Assembly: GCA_020216985.1 (NCBI GenBank)
Contig: JAIWOH010000040.1
Span: forward strand, 1-10,000
DNA from: Nitrospira sp.
Lineage (GTDB): Bacteria; Nitrospirota; Nitrospiria; Nitrospirales; Nitrospiraceae
Direction of reading: 5' to 3'
Length of the DNA stretch: 10,000 nucleotides
Positions within the stretch are counted from its first letter, which is position 1, and every line of letters begins with the position of its first letter. The notes under the pieces are model-generated. The model was not told the DNA's origin and did not search any database. It saw nothing but the letters and a program-made list of their open reading frames with translations. Below are positions 217-9,999 of this stretch, one piece after another. A program made the position numbers and the translations under genes.

Positions 217-618
217 TTACGGTTGCGGCACCGACGGCTCGGTACGATCCGACGAAGCCTTCCTGGCCGCACGAAAATCCAGCAGCATCGACACTTGGAC
301 ACCGAGGAATCCGCCCATCGCGGCGCCCGCGCCCGCGCCCACCCAAATCCTCTCAACGCCCGCTACCAACCATGCCAACGCTCCTCCCAGTAGCGTTCCC
401 GTCATAATGCTCACAAGAAACCGGCGCCCGCCCAAAAAGCCGACGACACCGCCCAGCAACAACCCCACCAGAATGGCGACGGGCAACGCTCCCCACCCCA
501 TGACCATCCCGATCAGAGTTCCGACGGTCCCCATCACCGCCATTCCCAAAAGAATGTCCAGGACTTTCCCCATCGGCATCGCTCGGACTCGTTGACTCAT
601 CGATCTTGACTCGCTCAT
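217..618 (-). CDS. Gly-rich four-helix membrane protein of unknown function
   Basis: The gene encodes 133 aa. Its ATG follows directly on the TAA of the DUF3047 gene (TAAATG), so the two are probably translationally coupled. A second ATG at residue 7 is an alternative start. After a basic N-terminus (about residues 1-18) come four hydrophobic segments at about 19-41, 45-62, 67-86 and 92-113. They are unusually rich in small residues, with GxxxG-like spacing such as [14 protein letters not shown] at 93-106, which favours tight helix packing. The C-terminal 20 residues are polar. Glycine-zipper-like membrane proteins occur in many unrelated families and I cannot name this one. It lies downstream of the bd-like oxidase gene in the same transcription direction. 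A structural or assembly role in that complex is possible but unproven. Confidence 0.75.
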
Positions 619-1299
619 TTATTTTCCCGGAAGCGCCATCAGCGGACCGATATCAATCTCGACACCGGGTCCCGCCACAATCGAGATCCCCCATGCCTTT
701 GCCGCAGGTTCATGCCCATGAATCTTCTTGAAATCTTCGTACACGTTCACGCGCTCCTCGAACCACTGTCCCAGCATCGCGGTCCCGCTTTGGACCACGA
801 GTTCGGACCCGCTGAACATTCCTCCCTCGGTGAGCGTCCCTTCTGGCTTCGAGGGGCTCCAGACGTATTTCGTGAAGACCGGAATAAACAGAAGATCAGT
901 ATCAAGCGAAGCATAGACGGCGGCGAGAGGTTCGGTTCCCGTCGGCGCCTTCAATAATCGCCATCGCCAGGTCAAGACCGGATAGGCTTTGGGGTCCCAA
1001 TCGATCTTCTTTTTTTTGATCCGTTGCCCCGCGTCCTTCGCCGACAAAAAGACGTCGCCGTTCTCCGATTGAACTTTGTAGGCCTCGCGACCTTTTGCTT
1101 TGCTCCGTTGGTTTTCGTGTTCCCAATGCGAAGGAAACCCGTCGGCATCTTTCGCTTTGAAATCTTCCAAGATCAGGACTTGACCTTCCGCCAGACCGAA
1201 GCCGGGCCAGGAGGTAAATCCGATCACCACAAGTGTGATGACCATGGTTCGAATCGGCACGTTCCATCGCATCAGCTTGCCCCTCTCCGTCTTTTTCAT
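619..1299 (-). CDS. Exported DUF3047 family protein
   Basis: The gene encodes 226 aa. Its ATG overlaps the stop of the oxidase gene by one base (TAATG), the usual sign of coupled translation. The N-terminus carries a signal sequence: basic n-region, hydrophobic core at about 18-30, and a likely cleavage after GLA at residue 37. A second in-frame ATG at 1272 (residue 10) has its own GAGAGGGG ribosome-binding stretch and would give a more standard 28-residue signal peptide, so the start is uncertain. The mature part has the DUF3047 pattern as I know it: an early F-x-x-x-D-A-D-G-F-P-S-x-W segment, the YPVLTWRWRL block at 106-115, VYASLD at 128-133, KYVW at 144-147 and ERVNVYEDF at 182-190. The family's usual C-terminal Asp-rich DxDNT-type segment is not evident; VAGPGVEIDIG stands there instead. 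The fold is thought to be a beta-sandwich of unknown role, acting in the periplasm. Confidence 0.85.
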   Translation of the reverse strand: MKKTERGKLMRWNVPIRTMVITLVVIGFTSWPGFGLAEGQVLILEDFKAKDADGFPSHWEHENQRSKAKGREAYKVQSENGDVFLSAKDAGQRIKKKKIDWDPKAYPVLTWRWRLLKAPTGTEPLAAVYASLDTDLLFIPVFTKYVWSPSKPEGTLTEGGMFSGSELVVQSGTAMLGQWFEERVNVYEDFKKIHGHEPAAKAWGISIVAGPGVEIDIGPLMALPGK

Positions 1300-3179
1300 T
1301 AGGCTTCCGGCGAAGAGACCGGCGACAACAGCGGCGCATTCGTATTATGACGCTCTTCGCCCATCACCGGTCGCCGACCCCATTGACACATCCAAAAAAG
1401 AACCAGCACCGCTCCCCAAAAGACCACCATGTTCAACGTCACCATTTTCGCGGCGAACGCCAGGTCCGGAGTGAACGCCCAGGGCGACACGTCGGCCATC
1501 ACTTCGCTCACGTGCCACGCCAACCGTCCGGATGAGCGAATATAGCCCATCAGCCCCATCACCCAACTGAAAGCCGCCGCCATGGCGAACAGCACGACCA
1601 TGCCCCGCGCCGGAATCTTGCCCCATTGGATTGGCCCATGAACGATCGACCCCTTCAGCATGGCGCGATTGATCAACAATCCGACGACGATGACCGTAAA
1701 AGTCGTGAGCGCTTGCGGCGCCGACAATCCCACGCGAACGTTCGCCGGCAAGTAGAAGCCGTAAATCGACAGCCCCACGACGTTCACGAGACCGACCCCG
1801 AACAACACGGCAATGATGATATTGCCCGTCGTCACCCACGGCACCGTCATGGTTCGATTCGCCCGTCGCATGTACAAGAAGCTGAGGGCGGTGCAGAGCA
1901 GAATGACGTTGATGGCTCCGTTCTTGGACGACATGACTCCATAGTTTCCGATGACCGGATGCTGCGCGCCGCCCATCGCCTTCACCTCTCCCGCCGACAC
2001 AAGAAGCGTATGCGGAGTCAGCCAAATAAACAGCGCCAACAGGAGCCCCCCGAACACCAATTGATAATAGGGTTGATACCGCTCCGCTCCCTTCAGCCGC
2101 GCCATGCCTTGCCAGATGTAATAATTGATGCCCAAAAAGAGAGCTCCGATCAGCAACGCCTGCACGACAAACATCCACGTCAGGAGCCCCCCCATCATAG
2201 TCACGCCCATGGTCTGCCGAAACGCGAAGACCGACCGCATCAGCCAATACCCGGCGATCGGCATGGGCAACAACGCACACACAGTCACGAAGAGAAAAAC
2301 GTACCCCACCCAATCGAAATAGGCCCGTTCCTCGGTCGTCTTTGCGGTAAAGAACCGGTAGCAGGCGTACGCCAACACGACCGCTCCGCCGGACATGATG
2401 TCGGCCAGAAACCGATGCACGTTGAGCGGATTCCAGAGGACGGAATGCAGCAAATGCCACCCGTTCCCAAGAAATCGGCCTTGAGCATCCACGCCGGCCG
2501 GCGCCATCATGAACGCCGACCAGGCATTCGCCAGCAGCAACAGAGCGGTCCCCACGACGTTCGTCGCCACCCCGATGGCCGCGTGCACCCATTTCATGCC
2601 CCGCTCGGTCATCCGGTCCCAACTATAATAATAAAGGATCAGGAGCACAGACTCGACCACGAACACGGCGGCATACGCTGGCATAAACGATTTGAAGGTT
2701 CCACCCATATAGGTCATGAAACTCGGATACAGCCCGATAAACATCGCGAGCATCAGACTTCCGATGACGGCGGTCACGGAGAGCGCCAACACCGCCACTT
2801 TCGCCAAATCCCTCGCCAAGCCGTCATATCTGAGCGACAGCGCCGGTTTGGAGGTCATCAATCCCAGAAATTCCAGCAAGGCGCAAAAGAGCGGCAACGC
2901 CAACACAAACCCGCCGAAATACGTGTGTTGCTGAGTCACAAACCACACCAGCGCCCGGCTGTCGAAGGAGCCGATCTGCGGGTACGCCGTTTCATGAGGC
3001 GCAGGCGCGGCGGGACCTTGCGGCACGCCGGGCGTGTTGAAATAGACGTCCAGCGCCCCCTCGGCCAAGGAAGCCCCTTCCATGCAGACGAACCCCAGCA
3101 AGGCGACCAGTGTCGCAACGACTCCTATCAGCTCGAGCGCCACCCGTTTCTCTCGTCGCAAACGATCCCGAACAACCAT
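1299..3179 (-). CDS. Divergent cytochrome bd-like oxidase, CydA-related subunit
   Basis: This 626-aa membrane protein has about 14 predicted helices, against about 9 and 450-520 aa in standard CydA. Homology shows in H85 (FVTQQHTYFGG), which matches the E. coli His19 heme ligand; in E176 within ESVLLILYYYSWDRM, which matches Glu107 and the FGWDR motif; in ANAWSAFMMAPAG, which matches VANGWMQNPIA; in NPLNVHRF; and in GRLAWHVSEVM at 551-561, which matches GRQPWAIGEVL. By hand alignment three key residues differ. Glu99 is replaced by Ala168, the low-spin heme ligand His186 by Ala259 (with H255 one helical turn earlier), and Glu445 by Leu543. Further His residues (242, 245, 390, 407, 514, 556) are potential new ligands. 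It lacks CxxCH, so no c-type heme. The start has an AAAGGTG ribosome-binding site and lies 2 nt after the previous stop. It is presumably an inner-membrane terminal oxidase or related electron carrier. Nitrospira genomes are known to encode such bd-like proteins; which subfamily this is I cannot tell. Confidence 0.85.
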   Translation of the reverse strand: MVVRDRLRREKRVALELIGVVATLVALLGFVCMEGASLAEGALDVYFNTPGVPQGPAAPAPHETAYPQIGSFDSRALVWFVTQQHTYFGGFVLALPLFCALLEFLGLMTSKPALSLRYDGLARDLAKVAVLALSVTAVIGSLMLAMFIGLYPSFMTYMGGTFKSFMPAYAAVFVVESVLLILYYYSWDRMTERGMKWVHAAIGVATNVVGTALLLLANAWSAFMMAPAGVDAQGRFLGNGWHLLHSVLWNPLNVHRFLADIMSGGAVVLAYACYRFFTAKTTEERAYFDWVGYVFLFVTVCALLPMPIAGYWLMRSVFAFRQTMGVTMMGGLLTWMFVVQALLIGALFLGINYYIWQGMARLKGAERYQPYYQLVFGGLLLALFIWLTPHTLLVSAGEVKAMGGAQHPVIGNYGVMSSKNGAINVILLCTALSFLYMRRANRTMTVPWVTTGNIIIAVLFGVGLVNVVGLSIYGFYLPANVRVGLSAPQALTTFTVIVVGLLINRAMLKGSIVHGPIQWGKIPARGMVVLFAMAAAFSWVMGLMGYIRSSGRLAWHVSEVMADVSPWAFTPDLAFAAKMVTLNMVVFWGAVLVLFWMCQWGRRPVMGEERHNTNAPLLSPVSSPEA

Positions 3180-3180
3180 G

Positions 3181-4233
3181 CTACACCTTTGATCCAGGAG
3201 CAGTCGGCATCGGCGTGCTCACATGTTTTGCTTTTCCAAGAATGCCCATCACAAAAGGACACCGGAGCAGGGCTTCATCGATTCTTTGCCCCTGCTGCTC
3301 TTCCACGTGCCGGCGATGTCCCAAATAGTATCCGTAGAGCGCCATCATTCCGCCCACGAATCCTCCGCCGGCGACGGAAAAACCGGGGGCCATGGTCGGC
3401 CATTGCACGACAAACAGGCCGACGCCCGTCGCGACCAAATAATAGGTGGACGAAAAAGCAAGCCCCGGCCACCACCAATACTTGAAGAGTTCGGATACGC
3501 TTGTCGCGGAGAATCGCGCCGTCCATGAGGCGCGTCCGTTCATACCGCCGAAATAGGCGCACAAGGTGATCGCACCTCCCAGCAACGCGACGGCGAGCAA
3601 TTGCACGATGATCGCCTGCTGTCCCATGACCACGTGATCGAGGGACGCGGCCGCCGCGCCGATCACCGATCCGGCCGCCACCCAGAGACCGACCTGAACC
3701 GCGCGGCTCCTTATCATGTCTCGCAACGGCGCTCCGTCGGGGAACGTGGGAAACGGTCTCCCCATCGCGGCCATCCGGCGCACATGGCCGATCTCAAACG
3801 CATCCCGCGCCACCGACGTGCAAGCGACCATGATCGCCATCATGGCGGGACCATCCGGATGTTGCAGATAGTCGTAGCCCACCATCCACAACAGCGCCAA
3901 CACCAGCAGCGAGAGCTGCGCGCCGTAGACCGCTCCGATCCAGAAAGCCATCCACGCGAGAACACGTCCGCCGTCTTGGCGGGCAATCACCCCCCAAGAG
4001 GCGGATCGCCCGATCCGATAAGCGAACAGGGCCGTTGCCATTGCGATCAGACTGCTCAACAAGAGCAATGTCAGCGGCTCCGCAATCGACACCAGGTGTT
4101 TGGCCACACGATACACCGCGAAGGCGACCAAGCCCGGCACAAGCATGATCAGCCGTTTCCGTTTTCGGACGGACTCCTCCGTCACAGCCAGGCTTAAGCT
4201 GGGAAGCACTCGCAAGGCCATCCGATGCAACAT
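3181..4233 (-). CDS. Polytopic membrane protein of unknown family in the oxidase operon
   Basis: The gene encodes 350 aa from ATG 4233, preceded by a GGCGGGGGAAAG ribosome-binding stretch. The open frame extends upstream to 4482, but that part overlaps the coding sequence of the PCP_red gene and reads as low-complexity Gly/Arg/Asp, so I reject it. After a basic N-terminus (VRKRKR at 22-27) there are seven or eight hydrophobic segments, at about 28-45, 53-74, 91-120, 127-141, 180-198, 205-228, 252-278 and 285-305. Between them is a conserved-looking polar block, ARDAFEIGHVRRM (142-154), followed by a Pro-rich loop GRPFPTFPDGAP. The C-terminus is polar and basic. Its stop is separated by one base from the ATG of the bd-like oxidase gene, so the two proteins are probably made together. 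No family is recognised. Its size is close to CydB, but I see no CydB signature; a partner or quinone-handling subunit is a guess. Confidence 0.75.
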   Translation of the reverse strand: MLHRMALRVLPSLSLAVTEESVRKRKRLIMLVPGLVAFAVYRVAKHLVSIAEPLTLLLLSSLIAMATALFAYRIGRSASWGVIARQDGGRVLAWMAFWIGAVYGAQLSLLVLALLWMVGYDYLQHPDGPAMMAIMVACTSVARDAFEIGHVRRMAAMGRPFPTFPDGAPLRDMIRSRAVQVGLWVAAGSVIGAAAASLDHVVMGQQAIIVQLLAVALLGGAITLCAYFGGMNGRASWTARFSATSVSELFKYWWWPGLAFSSTYYLVATGVGLFVVQWPTMAPGFSVAGGGFVGGMMALYGYYLGHRRHVEEQQGQRIDEALLRCPFVMGILGKAKHVSTPMPTAPGSKV

Positions 4234-4310: not shown

Positions 4311-4805
4311 CTACGTCCGCTGAGCTCCCATTCCAAAATACTTCGCCTTGACCTCTTCCATCAGCGACACGGTCACGACATTCATCCCTCGCTCGACCGC
4401 CGTCCGTTCCAGCTCGACCTTCGCCATCGCCCGCACGGCGGCCGGCACTTTTCCCAATCGTCGTTCCGCTTCCGGCTCCCATTCGATCCGCTCTTCGGAC
4501 GACGGGTTGAGCAGCCAGTCATAAGTAATAACCCTTGCTTCTCGGGCTCTGGCCCGCTCTTCCGCTTCCCGCCGAACGAGTGGCGCCAGGTACGGCGGCA
4601 TTCGGTCCAACCGATGCAGCGCCTCGTCCGTCCACATCAATCGATCGACCAATCCGCCGATGTTACCCGCCGGCACGTCAACGCCCACCTTCAGTCCGCA
4701 CCCGCGACATTCGGATCGAATAAACCACTGGGCAGCTCCATCTTCGCAAGCCCGCTCCTCAATCCCCTCCGTGTGCATCCACCGCCCACAGCCGCAGGTC
4801 AACAT
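4311..4805 (-). CDS. Cys-cluster protein with two PCP_red-like repeats
   Basis: This is a soluble 164-aa protein. The N-terminus has cysteines at 4, 6, 20, 33 and 36 (CGC, then ECRGC), in a zinc-ribbon-like or metal-binding arrangement. The C-terminal part (about 109-158, starting WEPEAERRLGKVPAAVR and continuing to the VVTVSLMEEVK segment) matches the PCP_red domain (Pfam PF08369). That domain is known from the C-terminus of the light-independent protochlorophyllide reductase B subunit and also occurs in small stand-alone proteins of non-phototrophs. A second, diverged copy appears to precede it at about 58-100 (WTDEALHRLDRMPPYLAP, then VITYDWL); aligned without gaps the two copies share about 12 of 42 positions. 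The ATG has little Shine-Dalgarno and overlaps the end of a short upstream ORF by 7 nt. No chlorophyll genes are in the window, so a redox or assembly role for the membrane complex is more likely than pigment synthesis. The function is unknown. Confidence 0.8.
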   Translation of the reverse strand: MLTCGCGRWMHTEGIEERACEDGAAQWFIRSECRGCGLKVGVDVPAGNIGGLVDRLMWTDEALHRLDRMPPYLAPLVRREAEERARAREARVITYDWLLNPSSEERIEWEPEAERRLGKVPAAVRAMAKVELERTAVERGMNVVTVSLMEEVKAKYFGMGAQRT

Positions 4806-6861: not shown

Positions 6862-7656
6862 TTACTTGATCTCGGCCTTGAGGTTGGCCGTTCCACCATC
6901 CGTCACGTCGACCTCAAACTCGATCTTCTTGGCCTTCCCGGCGAACGGATGCCAAGCCACCACCTTATGTTTACCGGCCGGAACATCCTTGATCTCGAAC
7001 GAACCGTCTTCCTTCGCCACCGCGTAGTACGGATTGTTCACCGGAAGAAAGAAGGACTGCATGAACTCATGCTGATCGCACTGCAAACGGAAATAGCCCT
7101 CTTTCTCCGCGCCGCCGCGGAACACCACCGGCTTTTCCAATTTGTCGCCCTTCTTGGCAAGACCGATGTTGAAGCCGGTCGCGGAAGTCGCTCCCTTCAC
7201 CACAAAACTATGCGGGTTATGAAGCACGCCTGCCACCGATTTGGGATCGTCCGGATCGGCATCGAAATTTTCGACCTTAAACGGCCGATTGTTGACGACA
7301 ATGCCACTGAACGGCTGGAAATCACAGAACTCCGCCTTAACCTCAGTGCCGGCATAGCCGTCCATGAATGCTTTGTCTTCGATATCCACCACCGCAACGA
7401 TCGCGTTCTTCAAACCGCCGTCCTTACCCACTTCGATCGTCCTGATGAACCGCTTATCCCCTTCCGCCAAGCCCTTGGTCGGGATCTTGTTACAGAAATT
7501 CGGGTTGGGGAATTTGGAGAAGAGAAACTCCTTCTGCTCGGACTTTCCGGCATAGGTGACTTTGCCGGAAATCGTCCCGCCTGCAAACGACGCGACAGGC
7601 GCCGCCACCACGGCGACGGCTACCACGCCCAACATGATCGATAACGAACGCTTCAT
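6862..7656 (-). CDS. Exported cupredoxin-like protein with carboxypeptidase-regulatory-like domain
   Basis: The gene encodes 264 aa from the ATG at 7656, chosen because a strong AAGGAGG lies 7 nt upstream; an open frame reaching 7737 lacks such a site. The N-terminus is a clear signal peptide (hydrophobic core 8-22, likely cleavage after SFA at 25). A beta-rich region follows, with GTISGKVTY at 27-35, the CDFQPF segment at 111-116, LHNPHSF at 145-151 and LQCDQHEFM at 191-199. The Cys193, His196 and Met199 set, plus His146 or His149, resembles a type-I copper ligand set with short C-x2-H-x2-M spacing. The last part, from NPYYAVAKEDGSFEIKDVP at 208-226 through WHPFAG, is typical of carboxypeptidase-regulatory-like beta domains often fused to such proteins. 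It probably binds copper or carries electrons in the periplasm. Its own promoter and terminator mark it as a single-gene unit. Copper binding is inferred from motifs only. Confidence 0.82.
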   Translation of the reverse strand: MKRSLSIMLGVVAVAVVAAPVASFAGGTISGKVTYAGKSEQKEFLFSKFPNPNFCNKIPTKGLAEGDKRFIRTIEVGKDGGLKNAIVAVVDIEDKAFMDGYAGTEVKAEFCDFQPFSGIVVNNRPFKVENFDADPDDPKSVAGVLHNPHSFVVKGATSATGFNIGLAKKGDKLEKPVVFRGGAEKEGYFRLQCDQHEFMQSFFLPVNNPYYAVAKEDGSFEIKDVPAGKHKVVAWHPFAGKAKKIEFEVDVTDGGTANLKAEIK

Positions 7657-7818
7657 AACATTGCCTCCTTGTGATGGACTTAGGGGTCCCATTGCGTCCC
7701 TAGGGAGTCCTCTCCCGGATCCCCCCGATCGACACACGGGAACAGCCTACGCTGGATTGTGTCTCGACGATCGGCACCGTGCCGGAAAGACTGGCCTAGG
7801 ACTCGTTGACTTGGAGGG
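7657..7818 (-). other. Predicted long 5' leader of the cupredoxin-like gene
   Basis: No gene is supported here. If the promoter at 7819-7847 is used, this stretch is a leader of about 155 nt. It is GC-rich with several short inverted repeats: CGGCAC-C-GTGCCG (7772-7784), a GACACA/TGTGTC pair (7731-7736 and 7758-7763) flanked by CGATCG copies, and GGGAG/CTCCC near 7703-7716. These could be operator half-sites or RNA structure. I recognise no riboswitch. Confidence 0.3.
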
Positions 7819-7847: not shown

Positions 7848-7953
7848 GACCAAAAATTTCGGTAGAACTGCACGCATGGAATTTCTTTCAGGTTCGCTCT
7901 TCTTGAAGACGGCTCTCACTCCCAATCACAAATTCCCGCATGGCGCATGACAT

Positions 7954-8049
7954 GATTCGCCGTCGAACACCCGACCTGATAAAAAATGAATGGCGAATCG
8001 GCCGGCAACCTGCTAAAGTGCAGTCGATTCGTTGCCGGTTTTCTTTTTT
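7954..8049 (+). promoter_or_regulatory. Attenuator-like leader with intrinsic terminator ahead of the desaturase gene
   Basis: On the plus strand CCGGCAAC (8002-8009) pairs with GTTGCCGG (8031-8038), an inner CTGC/GCAG stem extends the hairpin, and TTTTCTTTTTT (8039-8049) follows: a good intrinsic terminator. No plus-strand gene lies upstream that it could terminate. Two further elements fit attenuation. GATTCGCC (7954-7961) can pair with GGCGAATC (7992-7999), while GAATCG (7995-8000) can instead pair with CGATTC (8025-8030) inside the terminator hairpin. These pairings exclude each other. The structure ends 34 nt before the desaturase ATG, so it could gate that gene; alternatively it is the 3' end of a small RNA. 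No known riboswitch class is recognised, and I found no convincing plus-strand promoter upstream. Confidence 0.5.
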
Positions 8050-8083
8050 GCGCCAAAGGGAATCCAGAGTCCGATTCACCTGC

Positions 8084-9034
8084 ATGGTTCACGCATCAAA
8101 TTGTTCCAAAGCCTCTTCACCATCCGGTCCTTTTTTCTCAGGGCTTTCCGATCAAGCTTCGACCGGTCCACGGCGTGCCTATCCTCAGTTTGCAACGGTG
8201 TTTCTCTTCTGTCTGATCGTGGCCGCGACGGTCATTGGCGTCCCCCTCTTCGGATATCTCTACGGGTACAGTCGGCTTGACTGGACGATGTTCGGTCTAT
8301 TGTACGTGGTCACCGGGCTGGGCATTACCGTCGGCTACCATCGTTTGATTTCGCACCGCAGCTTTGCCTGTCCCGGTTGGGTCAAGGCGGTGTTGTTGAT
8401 CGCCGGCGGATGGGCGCTCCAAAACTCGGCGCTGAAGTGGGGAGCCGACCATATCCGGCACCATGCGGCCTGTGATCAAGAAGCCGACCCTTACAACGCG
8501 ACGCGCGGATTTTGGTACAGCCACTGCGGGTGGCTCTTGGTGGGACAACGGTACACCGATGAAAAATACGCGGTGCGACTCCGGCAGGATCCGATCGTCA
8601 TGTGGCAACATCGGTACTACGTTCCGATCGTGTTGTCGGGCCTGGCGCTGCCGTTTCTGGCGGGATTGCTGTACGGGGGGTGGCGCGGGGGGCTGAGCTG
8701 TTTCATGCTGGCGGGCATCGGCCGAACGTTCGCCGTCCTCAATTCCACATTTTGCATCAATTCGATCTGCCACATCTGGGGACGCCAGCCGCACAGCCAA
8801 ACTGACTCGAGCCGCGACAGTTGGCTGGTATCATTGTTGACGTTCGGCGAGGGGTATCACAATTATCACCACACCTACCCGAGCGACTATCGCAACGGCC
8901 CGCGGTGGTACAACTTCGACCCATCCAAATGGCTAATCGCCACGCTTTCATTCCTGGGGCTGGCCTGGTCACTCCGAACCGCCGGCGATCCCACGGCAAA
9001 GGGTTCCGGGCTTCGGACTGTGTCCGGCGGATGA
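8084..9034 (+). CDS. Membrane fatty-acid desaturase (delta-9 acyl desaturase type)
   Basis: The gene encodes 316 aa from the ATG at 8084. It inserts a cis double bond into acyl chains using a di-iron centre and O2, adjusting membrane fluidity. The three histidine boxes are complete: HRLISH (86-91), HIRHH (123-127, in WGADHIRHH) and HNYHH (259-263, in GEGYHNYHH). H230 in NSICHIWG is the extra ligand position typical of the acyl-CoA desaturase family. Hydrophobic pairs at about 36-62, 68-85, 99-113, 180-200 and 202-222 fit the family's membrane topology. The start is the first ATG downstream of a terminator-like element and shows no Shine-Dalgarno. The frame is open upstream to 7940, but that would run coding sequence through the hairpin, so the shorter form is preferred. 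It ends 23 nt from the convergent ureD gene. Whether the substrate is acyl-CoA, acyl-ACP or lipid is not decided by sequence. Confidence 0.9.
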   Translation: MVHASNCSKASSPSGPFFSGLSDQASTGPRRAYPQFATVFLFCLIVAATVIGVPLFGYLYGYSRLDWTMFGLLYVVTGLGITVGYHRLISHRSFACPGWVKAVLLIAGGWALQNSALKWGADHIRHHAACDQEADPYNATRGFWYSHCGWLLVGQRYTDEKYAVRLRQDPIVMWQHRYYVPIVLSGLALPFLAGLLYGGWRGGLSCFMLAGIGRTFAVLNSTFCINSICHIWGRQPHSQTDSSRDSWLVSLLTFGEGYHNYHHTYPSDYRNGPRWYNFDPSKWLIATLSFLGLAWSLRTAGDPTAKGSGLRTVSGG

Positions 9035-9057: not shown

Positions 9058-9999
9058 TTAATACTTTCGCAAGGACACGGCGGGGAGATTCCATAATTCC
9101 AGACGCACAGCCGCCCACAGCGCGTCGAAGATTCGGTTCAAGTCCGGAGCCGCCTTGGCCAAGAGTTTGACGGCAAGACCGGGCGCGGCCGGTGTCGAGA
9201 CTCCCCCCAGCACCTGCCCCGGCCGTTCATCCAGTAGAGACGCCGCTTTCGATTCCAGCCGATTCCAGGCCTCCGGTGGAATCGAGTCACCGACCACGTA
9301 GAGCGACGCAACGTAATTCCATGCTTCCGCCAGCCCGACTTGTCCCAAGTCCGTCGCGGGGTCAAGCCTATATCGTTCCAGAAGCCCCCCCCCAGAAGTC
9401 GTCGTAATGTGAACGTCATTCTCCAGAGCGGCAAACGCCCACCGCTCTCCCCGAGCGATTCGTCCCGCAGCGACAACATCCCACAACATAATCGTCGCAC
9501 CAGGCTCCAATTGCACGCGAATGATCTGACGAAACCGTGATCCGGCAAATGGAATGGTCTGTTCGGGCAGCCACTCCAGAATCGCACCCGATCCGACCGT
9601 AATCGTGACAATCTGCTCCGACGGTTTCTCTTCCGATCGATAGACACGGTTGGCGGACGGAGTGGAAATAAGGACGTGTGCCCCCTTATCCAGGTTCAGT
9701 TCAATGGAGAGACGGTCACCCCCCACCAACCCACCGGAGGGGTTGACCAGCTGCGTGTAGGCCGCGCCCGTGTCATCAAGGTACGCGGGAGGAAGCACAT
9801 GCCAGGGAGTCGTGCAATGCGAACGCGTCAGGATTGTCCGACCGTCGCGAACACCAAAGGCAAGCCGCAACGCACCGACACGGCCGACCGCTTCGATTCC
9901 ATCAAGGCCAAAGTGAGTACGCGATCGTTTCCGTGTCACAAGCGGGGGTATGCCGTTCACACCGACCGGTTCTTGGCGGGGATGCGCTGCTCGACCCAA
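9058..9999 (-). CDS. ureD: Urease accessory protein UreD (UreH), 5' end at the window edge
   Basis: At least 313 aa are visible. UreD works with UreF and UreG as a chaperone that delivers nickel into the urease active site in the cytoplasm. Family features are present in order: the GRVGALRLAFGVRDGRT strand region at about 39-55, TTPWHVLPPAY (63-73), the signature NPSGGLVGGDRL (86-97), EWLPEQTIPFAGSRF (141-155), the LWDVVAAGRIARGERW segment (172-187), and a C-terminal Ala/Leu-rich helix ending in a short aromatic tail. The length matches the family's usual 270-310 aa. The most upstream possible start in the window is a TTG at 9999, one base from the edge; GTG codons at 9960 and 9939 are alternatives, and the gene could also continue outside. 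The other ure genes would lie beyond 10000, making ureD the distal gene of its operon. Confidence 0.9.
   Translation of the reverse strand: MGRAAHPRQEPVGVNGIPPLVTRKRSRTHFGLDGIEAVGRVGALRLAFGVRDGRTILTRSHCTTPWHVLPPAYLDDTGAAYTQLVNPSGGLVGGDRLSIELNLDKGAHVLISTPSANRVYRSEEKPSEQIVTITVGSGAILEWLPEQTIPFAGSRFRQIIRVQLEPGATIMLWDVVAAGRIARGERWAFAALENDVHITTTSGGGLLERYRLDPATDLGQVGLAEAWNYVASLYVVGDSIPPEAWNRLESKAASLLDERPGQVLGGVSTPAAPGLAVKLLAKAAPDLNRIFDALWAAVRLELWNLPAVSLRKY

Follow-up and report, generated by a model that had tools for sequence, protein, structure and literature searches.

The gene at positions 1299..3179 (minus strand) of the window, the whole 10 000-nt stretch of a Nitrospira sp. contig (JAIWOH010000040.1) analysed here, encodes a CydA-like protein of 626 amino acids (aa). 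The protein is an already known, uncharacterised relative of cytochrome bd in Nitrospira, the bd-like_4 orthologue of OR-N type. It is real and ordinary in kind; an earlier sequence-only reading, which had the open reading frame (ORF), strand and length right, partly misread it in a hand alignment. Judging from the alignments described below, its altered heme-site pattern is a trait of the family and not peculiar to bd-like_4. As to its role, we see about an even chance that bd-like_4 is an OR-N CydA' subunit which partners bd-like_3, is fed by cytochromes from nitrite oxidation and carries hemes on H85 and H255.

In a Pfam scan (E ≤ 0.01) the only match was Cyt_bd_oxida_I (PF01654; residues 74-329, E-value 1.7e-16), as expected for a CydA fold; as the heme-copper oxidase domain PF00115 was not matched, a heme-copper oxidase identity was rejected. 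The OR-C type is defined by a fused cytochrome c (CxxCH), and this motif is absent from all 626 aa. We observed 14 long predicted helices, while CydA has 9, which supports the earlier estimate of about five extra helices. Foldseek and VIA matches other than bd and ACIII were set aside as common helical arrangements. The best named database match was a 'cytochrome ubiquinol oxidase subunit I' from Nitrospira sp. (94%), with orthologues in the two nearest genomes at 98% and 97%; NG86 dN/dS values were 0.06-0.13 in seven of eight pairs (dS >1 in six of the seven; the eighth pair was not computable). The host genome has 2.26 Mb in 222 contigs and is 87% complete.

Features of the OR-N type were taken from the published description of a bd-like protein (PMC3578206). 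The window protein shares them: it has no quinol site, additional helices take the place of the Q-loop, and it is a bd-like protein from Nitrospirota/Nitrospinota. Nitrospira bd-like proteins have already been classed as OR-N in print (PMC12342949), in agreement with the earlier remark that divergent proteins of this kind are known from Nitrospira.

Heme-ligand and quinol-site positions

Positions were compared in two MAFFT alignments (53 and 153 rows, overlapping sets) of representative sequences instead of all orthologues. The larger one held 35 bd-like_4 orthologues, 6 canonical rows and 112 other non-canonical (OR-N-type) rows: 10 bd-like_3, 86 wider relatives, 2 distant Nitrospirota, 6 bd1 and 8 bd2, where bd1 and bd2 (OR-N1/OR-N2-like) are labels inferred from identity and gene order. 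ORFs shorter than 480 aa were left out of one collection of bd-like ORFs.

H85 is the equivalent of the Escherichia coli heme ligand His19 according to both MAFFT and hhalign; it was kept in 34 of 35 orthologues (the remaining one has X), and two truncated rows of wider relatives are gapped there. The second histidine ligand, His186, had been reported as replaced by Ala259. We could not confirm this: H255 was placed on the canonical histidine in both MAFFT alignments, in the hhalign profile-profile alignment and, of three hmmsearch alignments, in those to 7ose_A and 9r2g_A, and the position is His in 35/35 orthologues, 112/112 other OR-N-type rows and 6/6 canonical rows. The hand alignment landed on Ala259 because it was anchored on Asn-Pro without a gap (a single-sequence phmmer alignment to 5doq_A also anchors on Asn-Pro, and ends there); we therefore reject the supposed loss of His186, which an ungapped offset most likely explains. 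With the equivalents of His19 and probably His186 kept, two heme sites are plausible in bd-like_4.

The two glutamates of canonical quinol bd oxidases, Glu99 and Glu445, are indeed missing. For Glu99 the loss stands, but the residue in its place is Tyr169 (MAFFT and hhalign), not Ala168; all 35 orthologues have Tyr here, as do the remaining non-canonical rows bar one gap and one Phe. Its distance from E176, the Glu107 equivalent, is 7 residues, as in two canonical Nitrospirales CydAs (L043, L048); E176 itself is kept in 33/35 orthologues, with a few exceptions. The replacement of Glu445 by Leu543 was borne out by both methods. Leu543 sits inside Met-Gly-Leu-Met-Gly (Met-Thr-Leu-Met-Gly in the bd1 row displayed), where M541 and M544 are Met in 35/35 orthologues and in all non-canonical rows but one each; H556, R548 and D563 are invariant across all 147 non-canonical rows. 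Since the same ligand pattern recurs across these rows, the changes are a family signature, and the loss of Glu99/Glu445 is rejected as a feature unique to bd-like_4.

The quinol-site residues K252 and E257 correspond to M324 and M329 (hhalign, MAFFT). The M393 position falls in a weakly aligned region and was read as P478 by MAFFT and as G484 by local manual reading, neither being Met. No CydB (PF02322) was matched in a scan of ten proteins of the window or in the 87% complete host genome. These observations support the earlier suggestion that the protein is not a quinol oxidase of the classical type; from sequence, a different cofactor set is possible. Compared with E. coli CydA (6rx4_A/6rko_A), bd-like_4 has in common the core fold, H19, E107, W441, R448 and, by most alignments, H186, whereas E99, E445, K252, E257, a detectable CydB and, as far as the weak alignment there shows, a Met at the M393 position are lacking and extra helices are found where the Q-loop stands, with one more at the N-terminus.

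The 'new' histidines of the sequence-only reading differ in how widely they occur (MAFFT). H407 is present in 35/35 orthologues and in all non-canonical rows bar eight bd2 rows and two others. H390 occurs in 35/35 orthologues, 10/10 bd-like_3, 6/6 bd1 and 57/86 wider relatives, the other 29 having Arg or Asn, and is rejected as an obligatory ligand on account of this last count; in bd2 it depends on the alignment (0/8 by MAFFT, while hhalign places the bd2 TPH motif on H390). H242 and H245 are found mainly in bd-like_4 and bd-like_3. H514, which is seen in 31/35 orthologues, in no other rows, and on the cytoplasmic side by the assumed topology, was also rejected as a ligand.

What does distinguish the bd-like_4 clade is a set of five changes. 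D260 is found in 35/35 orthologues as opposed to N in 112/112 other non-canonical rows, and S316 in 34/35 (one Ala) as opposed to E in 112/112; L86T, L306M and Y528V are nearly fixed in orthologues, the exceptions among other rows being mainly bd2. T86, D260, M306, S316 and V528 hold in six orthologues from a second Nitrospirales family, f2 (one of them ends before 528); M291V and Q527M do not hold there.

Gene order, distribution and phylogeny

In the window, bd-like_4 lies within a block of minus-strand genes. Directly upstream is a membrane protein gene with no Pfam match (3181..4233; the mechanical ORF starts at 4482, the likely start, MLHRMALRV as in orthologues, is at 4233), followed upstream by genes for a 164-aa PCP_red-domain protein (PF08369; 4311..4805), a DUF420 membrane protein (PF04238; 4915..5628), an O-methyltransferase (PF00891; 5714..6703; best NCBIfam BchU, 79 bits against a cut-off of 276) and a protein with a signal-like start, a C-x2-H-x2-M motif and weak fn3-type Pfam matches (6862..7737), which by manual reading looks cupredoxin-like. 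Directly downstream are genes for a DUF3047 protein (PF11249; 619..1299) and a 133-aa membrane protein (217..618).

Relatives carry these genes in the following order: CxxHxxM protein, methyltransferase, DUF420, PCP_red, membrane protein, bd-like_4, DUF3047, 133-aa membrane protein, two FGE-sulfatase-like proteins, bd-like_3, two cytochromes c and alternative NxrC; the part after the 133-aa membrane protein is off this contig. We observed this order, within the limits of each stretch, in families f1 (L035-L037, L080, L179), f2 (L164, L165 with L166, L167-L169, L173 with L174) and f3 (L038, L039). The FGE-sulfatase-like (PF03781) pair between bd-like_4 and bd-like_3 (L036:11063-11980 and 11935-12930, plus strand) is kept in the cluster.

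Several other features of the block may be mentioned. The PCP_red domain (4311-4805) is also found in a protochlorophyllide reductase subunit; the PCP_red protein and the methyltransferase stand beside a putative heme protein in loci of three families, and tetrapyrrole or quinone modification is possible for the pair. A 619-aa ORF antisense to bd-like_4 (1626-3485, plus strand) is most likely a mechanical shadow. A gene for the urease accessory protein UreD (9058-9999, minus strand) and one for a fatty acid desaturase (7940-9034, plus strand) adjoin the block.

The gene order fits published accounts of bd-like_4. Nitrospira moscoviensis has four bd-like genes, with bd-like_3 beside alt_NxrC_2 and two cytochromes c, and bd-like_4 was described as a bd-like_3 duplicate located a few genes off in all Nitrospira genomes (Mundinger et al. 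2019, PMC6606698); compared with that description, the window gene shows no difference. The bd-like protein of the NXR cluster was reported to have 14 helices and conserved heme b ligands, to lack quinol residues and to be of enigmatic function, possibly ACIII-like (Luecker et al. 2013, PMC3578206). By description, the bd-like oxidase of Nitrospina gracilis/Kuenenia resembles bd-like_4 in its 14 helices, CydA-like N-terminal part, kept heme b ligands, lacking quinol residues and nearby alternative NxrC and cytochromes; it differs in being the single conspicuous bd-like gene in that account. OR-N1/OR-N2 CydAA' (Murali et al. 2021, as cited in PMC12342949 and PMC10839748) have the same ligand pattern and two CydA-type genes near cytochrome c and NxrC-like genes. 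Among the matches listed, bd1 is ∼36-40% and bd2 32-38% identical to bd-like_4; unlike it, both keep E316 and N260.

An orthologue of bd-like_4 was found, among the matches listed, in at least 52 of 59 Nitrospirales genomes: 33/35 in f1, 7/8 in f2, 12/12 in f3 and 0/4 in f4, the misses outside f4 being G015 (54% complete), G028 (88%) and G041 (90%). In the four f4 genomes a PF01654 search yielded no bd1 and no bd-like_4, a bd2-like protein in 4/4 and bd-like_3 in 3/4. Two f4 loci (L170, L171) keep FGE2, bd-like_3, cytochromes and alternative NxrC with the upstream block absent; a third (L172) starts at bd-like_3, at a contig end. With a query that 7b04_B showed to be subunit A of NXR, NxrA was detected at E ≤ 1e-30 in 43/59 genomes, f4 contributing none (0/4); the TIGR03479 family search gave below-cut-off matches in all 59 genomes and was not used for counts. 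As UBA2166 is described as the sole Nitrospirales clade without NXR (PMC12342949), f4 is probably the UBA2166 family. The link to NxrA is imperfect: 10 of the at least 52 genomes with bd-like_4 had no NxrA match, and G041 has NxrA with bd-like_4 not among the matches listed. One of the ten, G022 (stretch L036), is a 99% complete, single-contig genome of the genus Nitrospira with the whole cluster.

The search with the OR-N-type alignment gave at least 579 confirmed loci, and the best 80 (L084-L163), from many phyla by record title, were compared with the cluster (neighbours at E ≤ 1e-8, flanks up to 7 kb). A same-strand cytochrome c was present in 78/80 and an NxrC-like gene in 75/80; DUF3047, DUF420, the methyltransferase, both membrane proteins and FGE1 were matched in 0/80, FGE2 in 1/80 and PCP_red in 14/80. 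In a FastTree phylogeny of a hand-picked subset of 72 sequences (ORFs <380 aa left out) the bd-like_4 clade had support 1.0 and bd-like_3, including f4, 0.99; the two join at 0.979, and their neighbour clade (0.991) contains, by record title, proteins from other Nitrospirota, Nitrospinae and two Deltaproteobacteria. The tree fits a gene duplication in the ancestor of Nitrospirales followed by loss in f4, though other histories are possible.

Proposed role and alternative explanations

The reading that explains best the sequence, predicted fold, conservation, gene order and distribution observed is as follows; heme binding, pairing with bd-like_3 and the electron donor are what we infer from these. 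Within the cytochrome bd superfamily, bd-like_4 is a Nitrospirales paralogue of the OR-N branch. It would most likely be a second CydA-type subunit (CydA') that forms a membrane complex together with its sister bd-like_3, whose gene lies ∼3.5 kb downstream beside those for the two c-type cytochromes and alternative NxrC. From the periplasmic side, these cytochromes would pass electrons derived from nitrite oxidation to hemes presumably held by H85 and H255, with the family-specific Y169, M541/M544 and H556 occupying the places of Glu99 and Glu445 of bd. OR-N enzymes likely use cytochrome c, with experimental confirmation said to be lacking (PMC10839748), and for the bd-like proteins of Nitrospira the literature available to us yielded neither biochemical nor complexome evidence. 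A fuller picture, which we rate as rather unlikely, is that of a specialised CydA' confined to nitrite-oxidising Nitrospirales families, inherited along with a block of about nine genes, further modified by E316S/N260D, and forming with bd-like_3 a second OR-N complex in whose heme site an invariant Tyr and Met-Gly-Leu-Met-Gly stand for the two glutamates.

Several observations weigh against this proposal. The heterodimer is postulated because of gene order alone; bd-like_3 can exist alone, as it is present in three f4 genomes without bd-like_4; and the host genome, among the matches listed, has no bd-like_3 and no full-length alternative NxrC. The best-scoring of the three hmmsearch alignments (5doq_A) puts H255 one residue before the canonical His. 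The changes at N260 and E316 could mean a lost redox function, and the cassette occurs on a contig of the anammox bacterium Candidatus Scalindua (L103), which argues against O2 reduction as its general role.

Chances that the bd-like_4 complex reduces O2 are, in our estimate, about balanced; electron transfer to quinone, as reverse transport, is a lesser but serious possibility, and a non-redox structural role is improbable. Matches to COX1 were seen in 18/59 relatives and to CydB in 23/59 (E ≤ 0.001, weak ones included). The 27/59 genomes with neither (alternative oxidase was not searched for) include 13 that are at least 95% complete and two single-contig ones (G039, G052); the oxidase candidates found in them are OR-N-type proteins, therefore loss of Glu99/Glu445 alone cannot exclude O2 reduction in the family. 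An ACIII-like reverse transport, in which the bd-like_3/bd-like_4 complex passes nitrite-derived electrons from cytochromes to the (methyl-plasto)quinone pool, follows an idea that Luecker et al. (2013) put forward for the bd-like oxidase; we regard it as somewhat unlikely, as bd-like_4 has none of the canonical quinol-site residues that were tested, no alternative quinone site was identified in it, and a shared fold proves no function.

Could bd-like_4 be a degenerate paralogue that lost catalysis after duplication and scaffolds the complex as CydB does CydA? E316S and N260D, at positions uniform in all 112 other OR-N-type rows, would agree with this, as would Y528V and L86T, the latter beside the ligand H85; still, with Y169, H255, M541, M544 and H556 fixed in the orthologues, H85 and E176 nearly so, and dN/dS low, we find it hard to credit. 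Least credible by far is the suggestion of the sequence-only reading that bd-like_4 has copper or a wholly new heme arrangement of its own. It could draw on the absence of both glutamates, on H390, H407 and H556, each in 35/35 orthologues, and on heme b and copper sites suggested for bd-like_2 (Luecker 2010, per Mundinger et al., PMC6606698); however, the pattern is common to the OR-N-type set, no heme-copper Pfam domain was matched and H390 gives way to Arg or Asn in a third of the wider relatives.

O2 reduction and the reverse drive of electrons to quinone are unsettled in Nitrospira, major nitrite oxidisers, because many of them are without a classical oxidase. The residue comparison presented here mends the reading of His186 and gives the OR-N-type group a set of specific ligand residues that can be tested. 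Two things set bd-like_4 apart within this group: E316S/N260D, and the fact that it is missing from all four genomes of the NXR-less family; these changes, together with the restricted distribution, make it worth pursuing.
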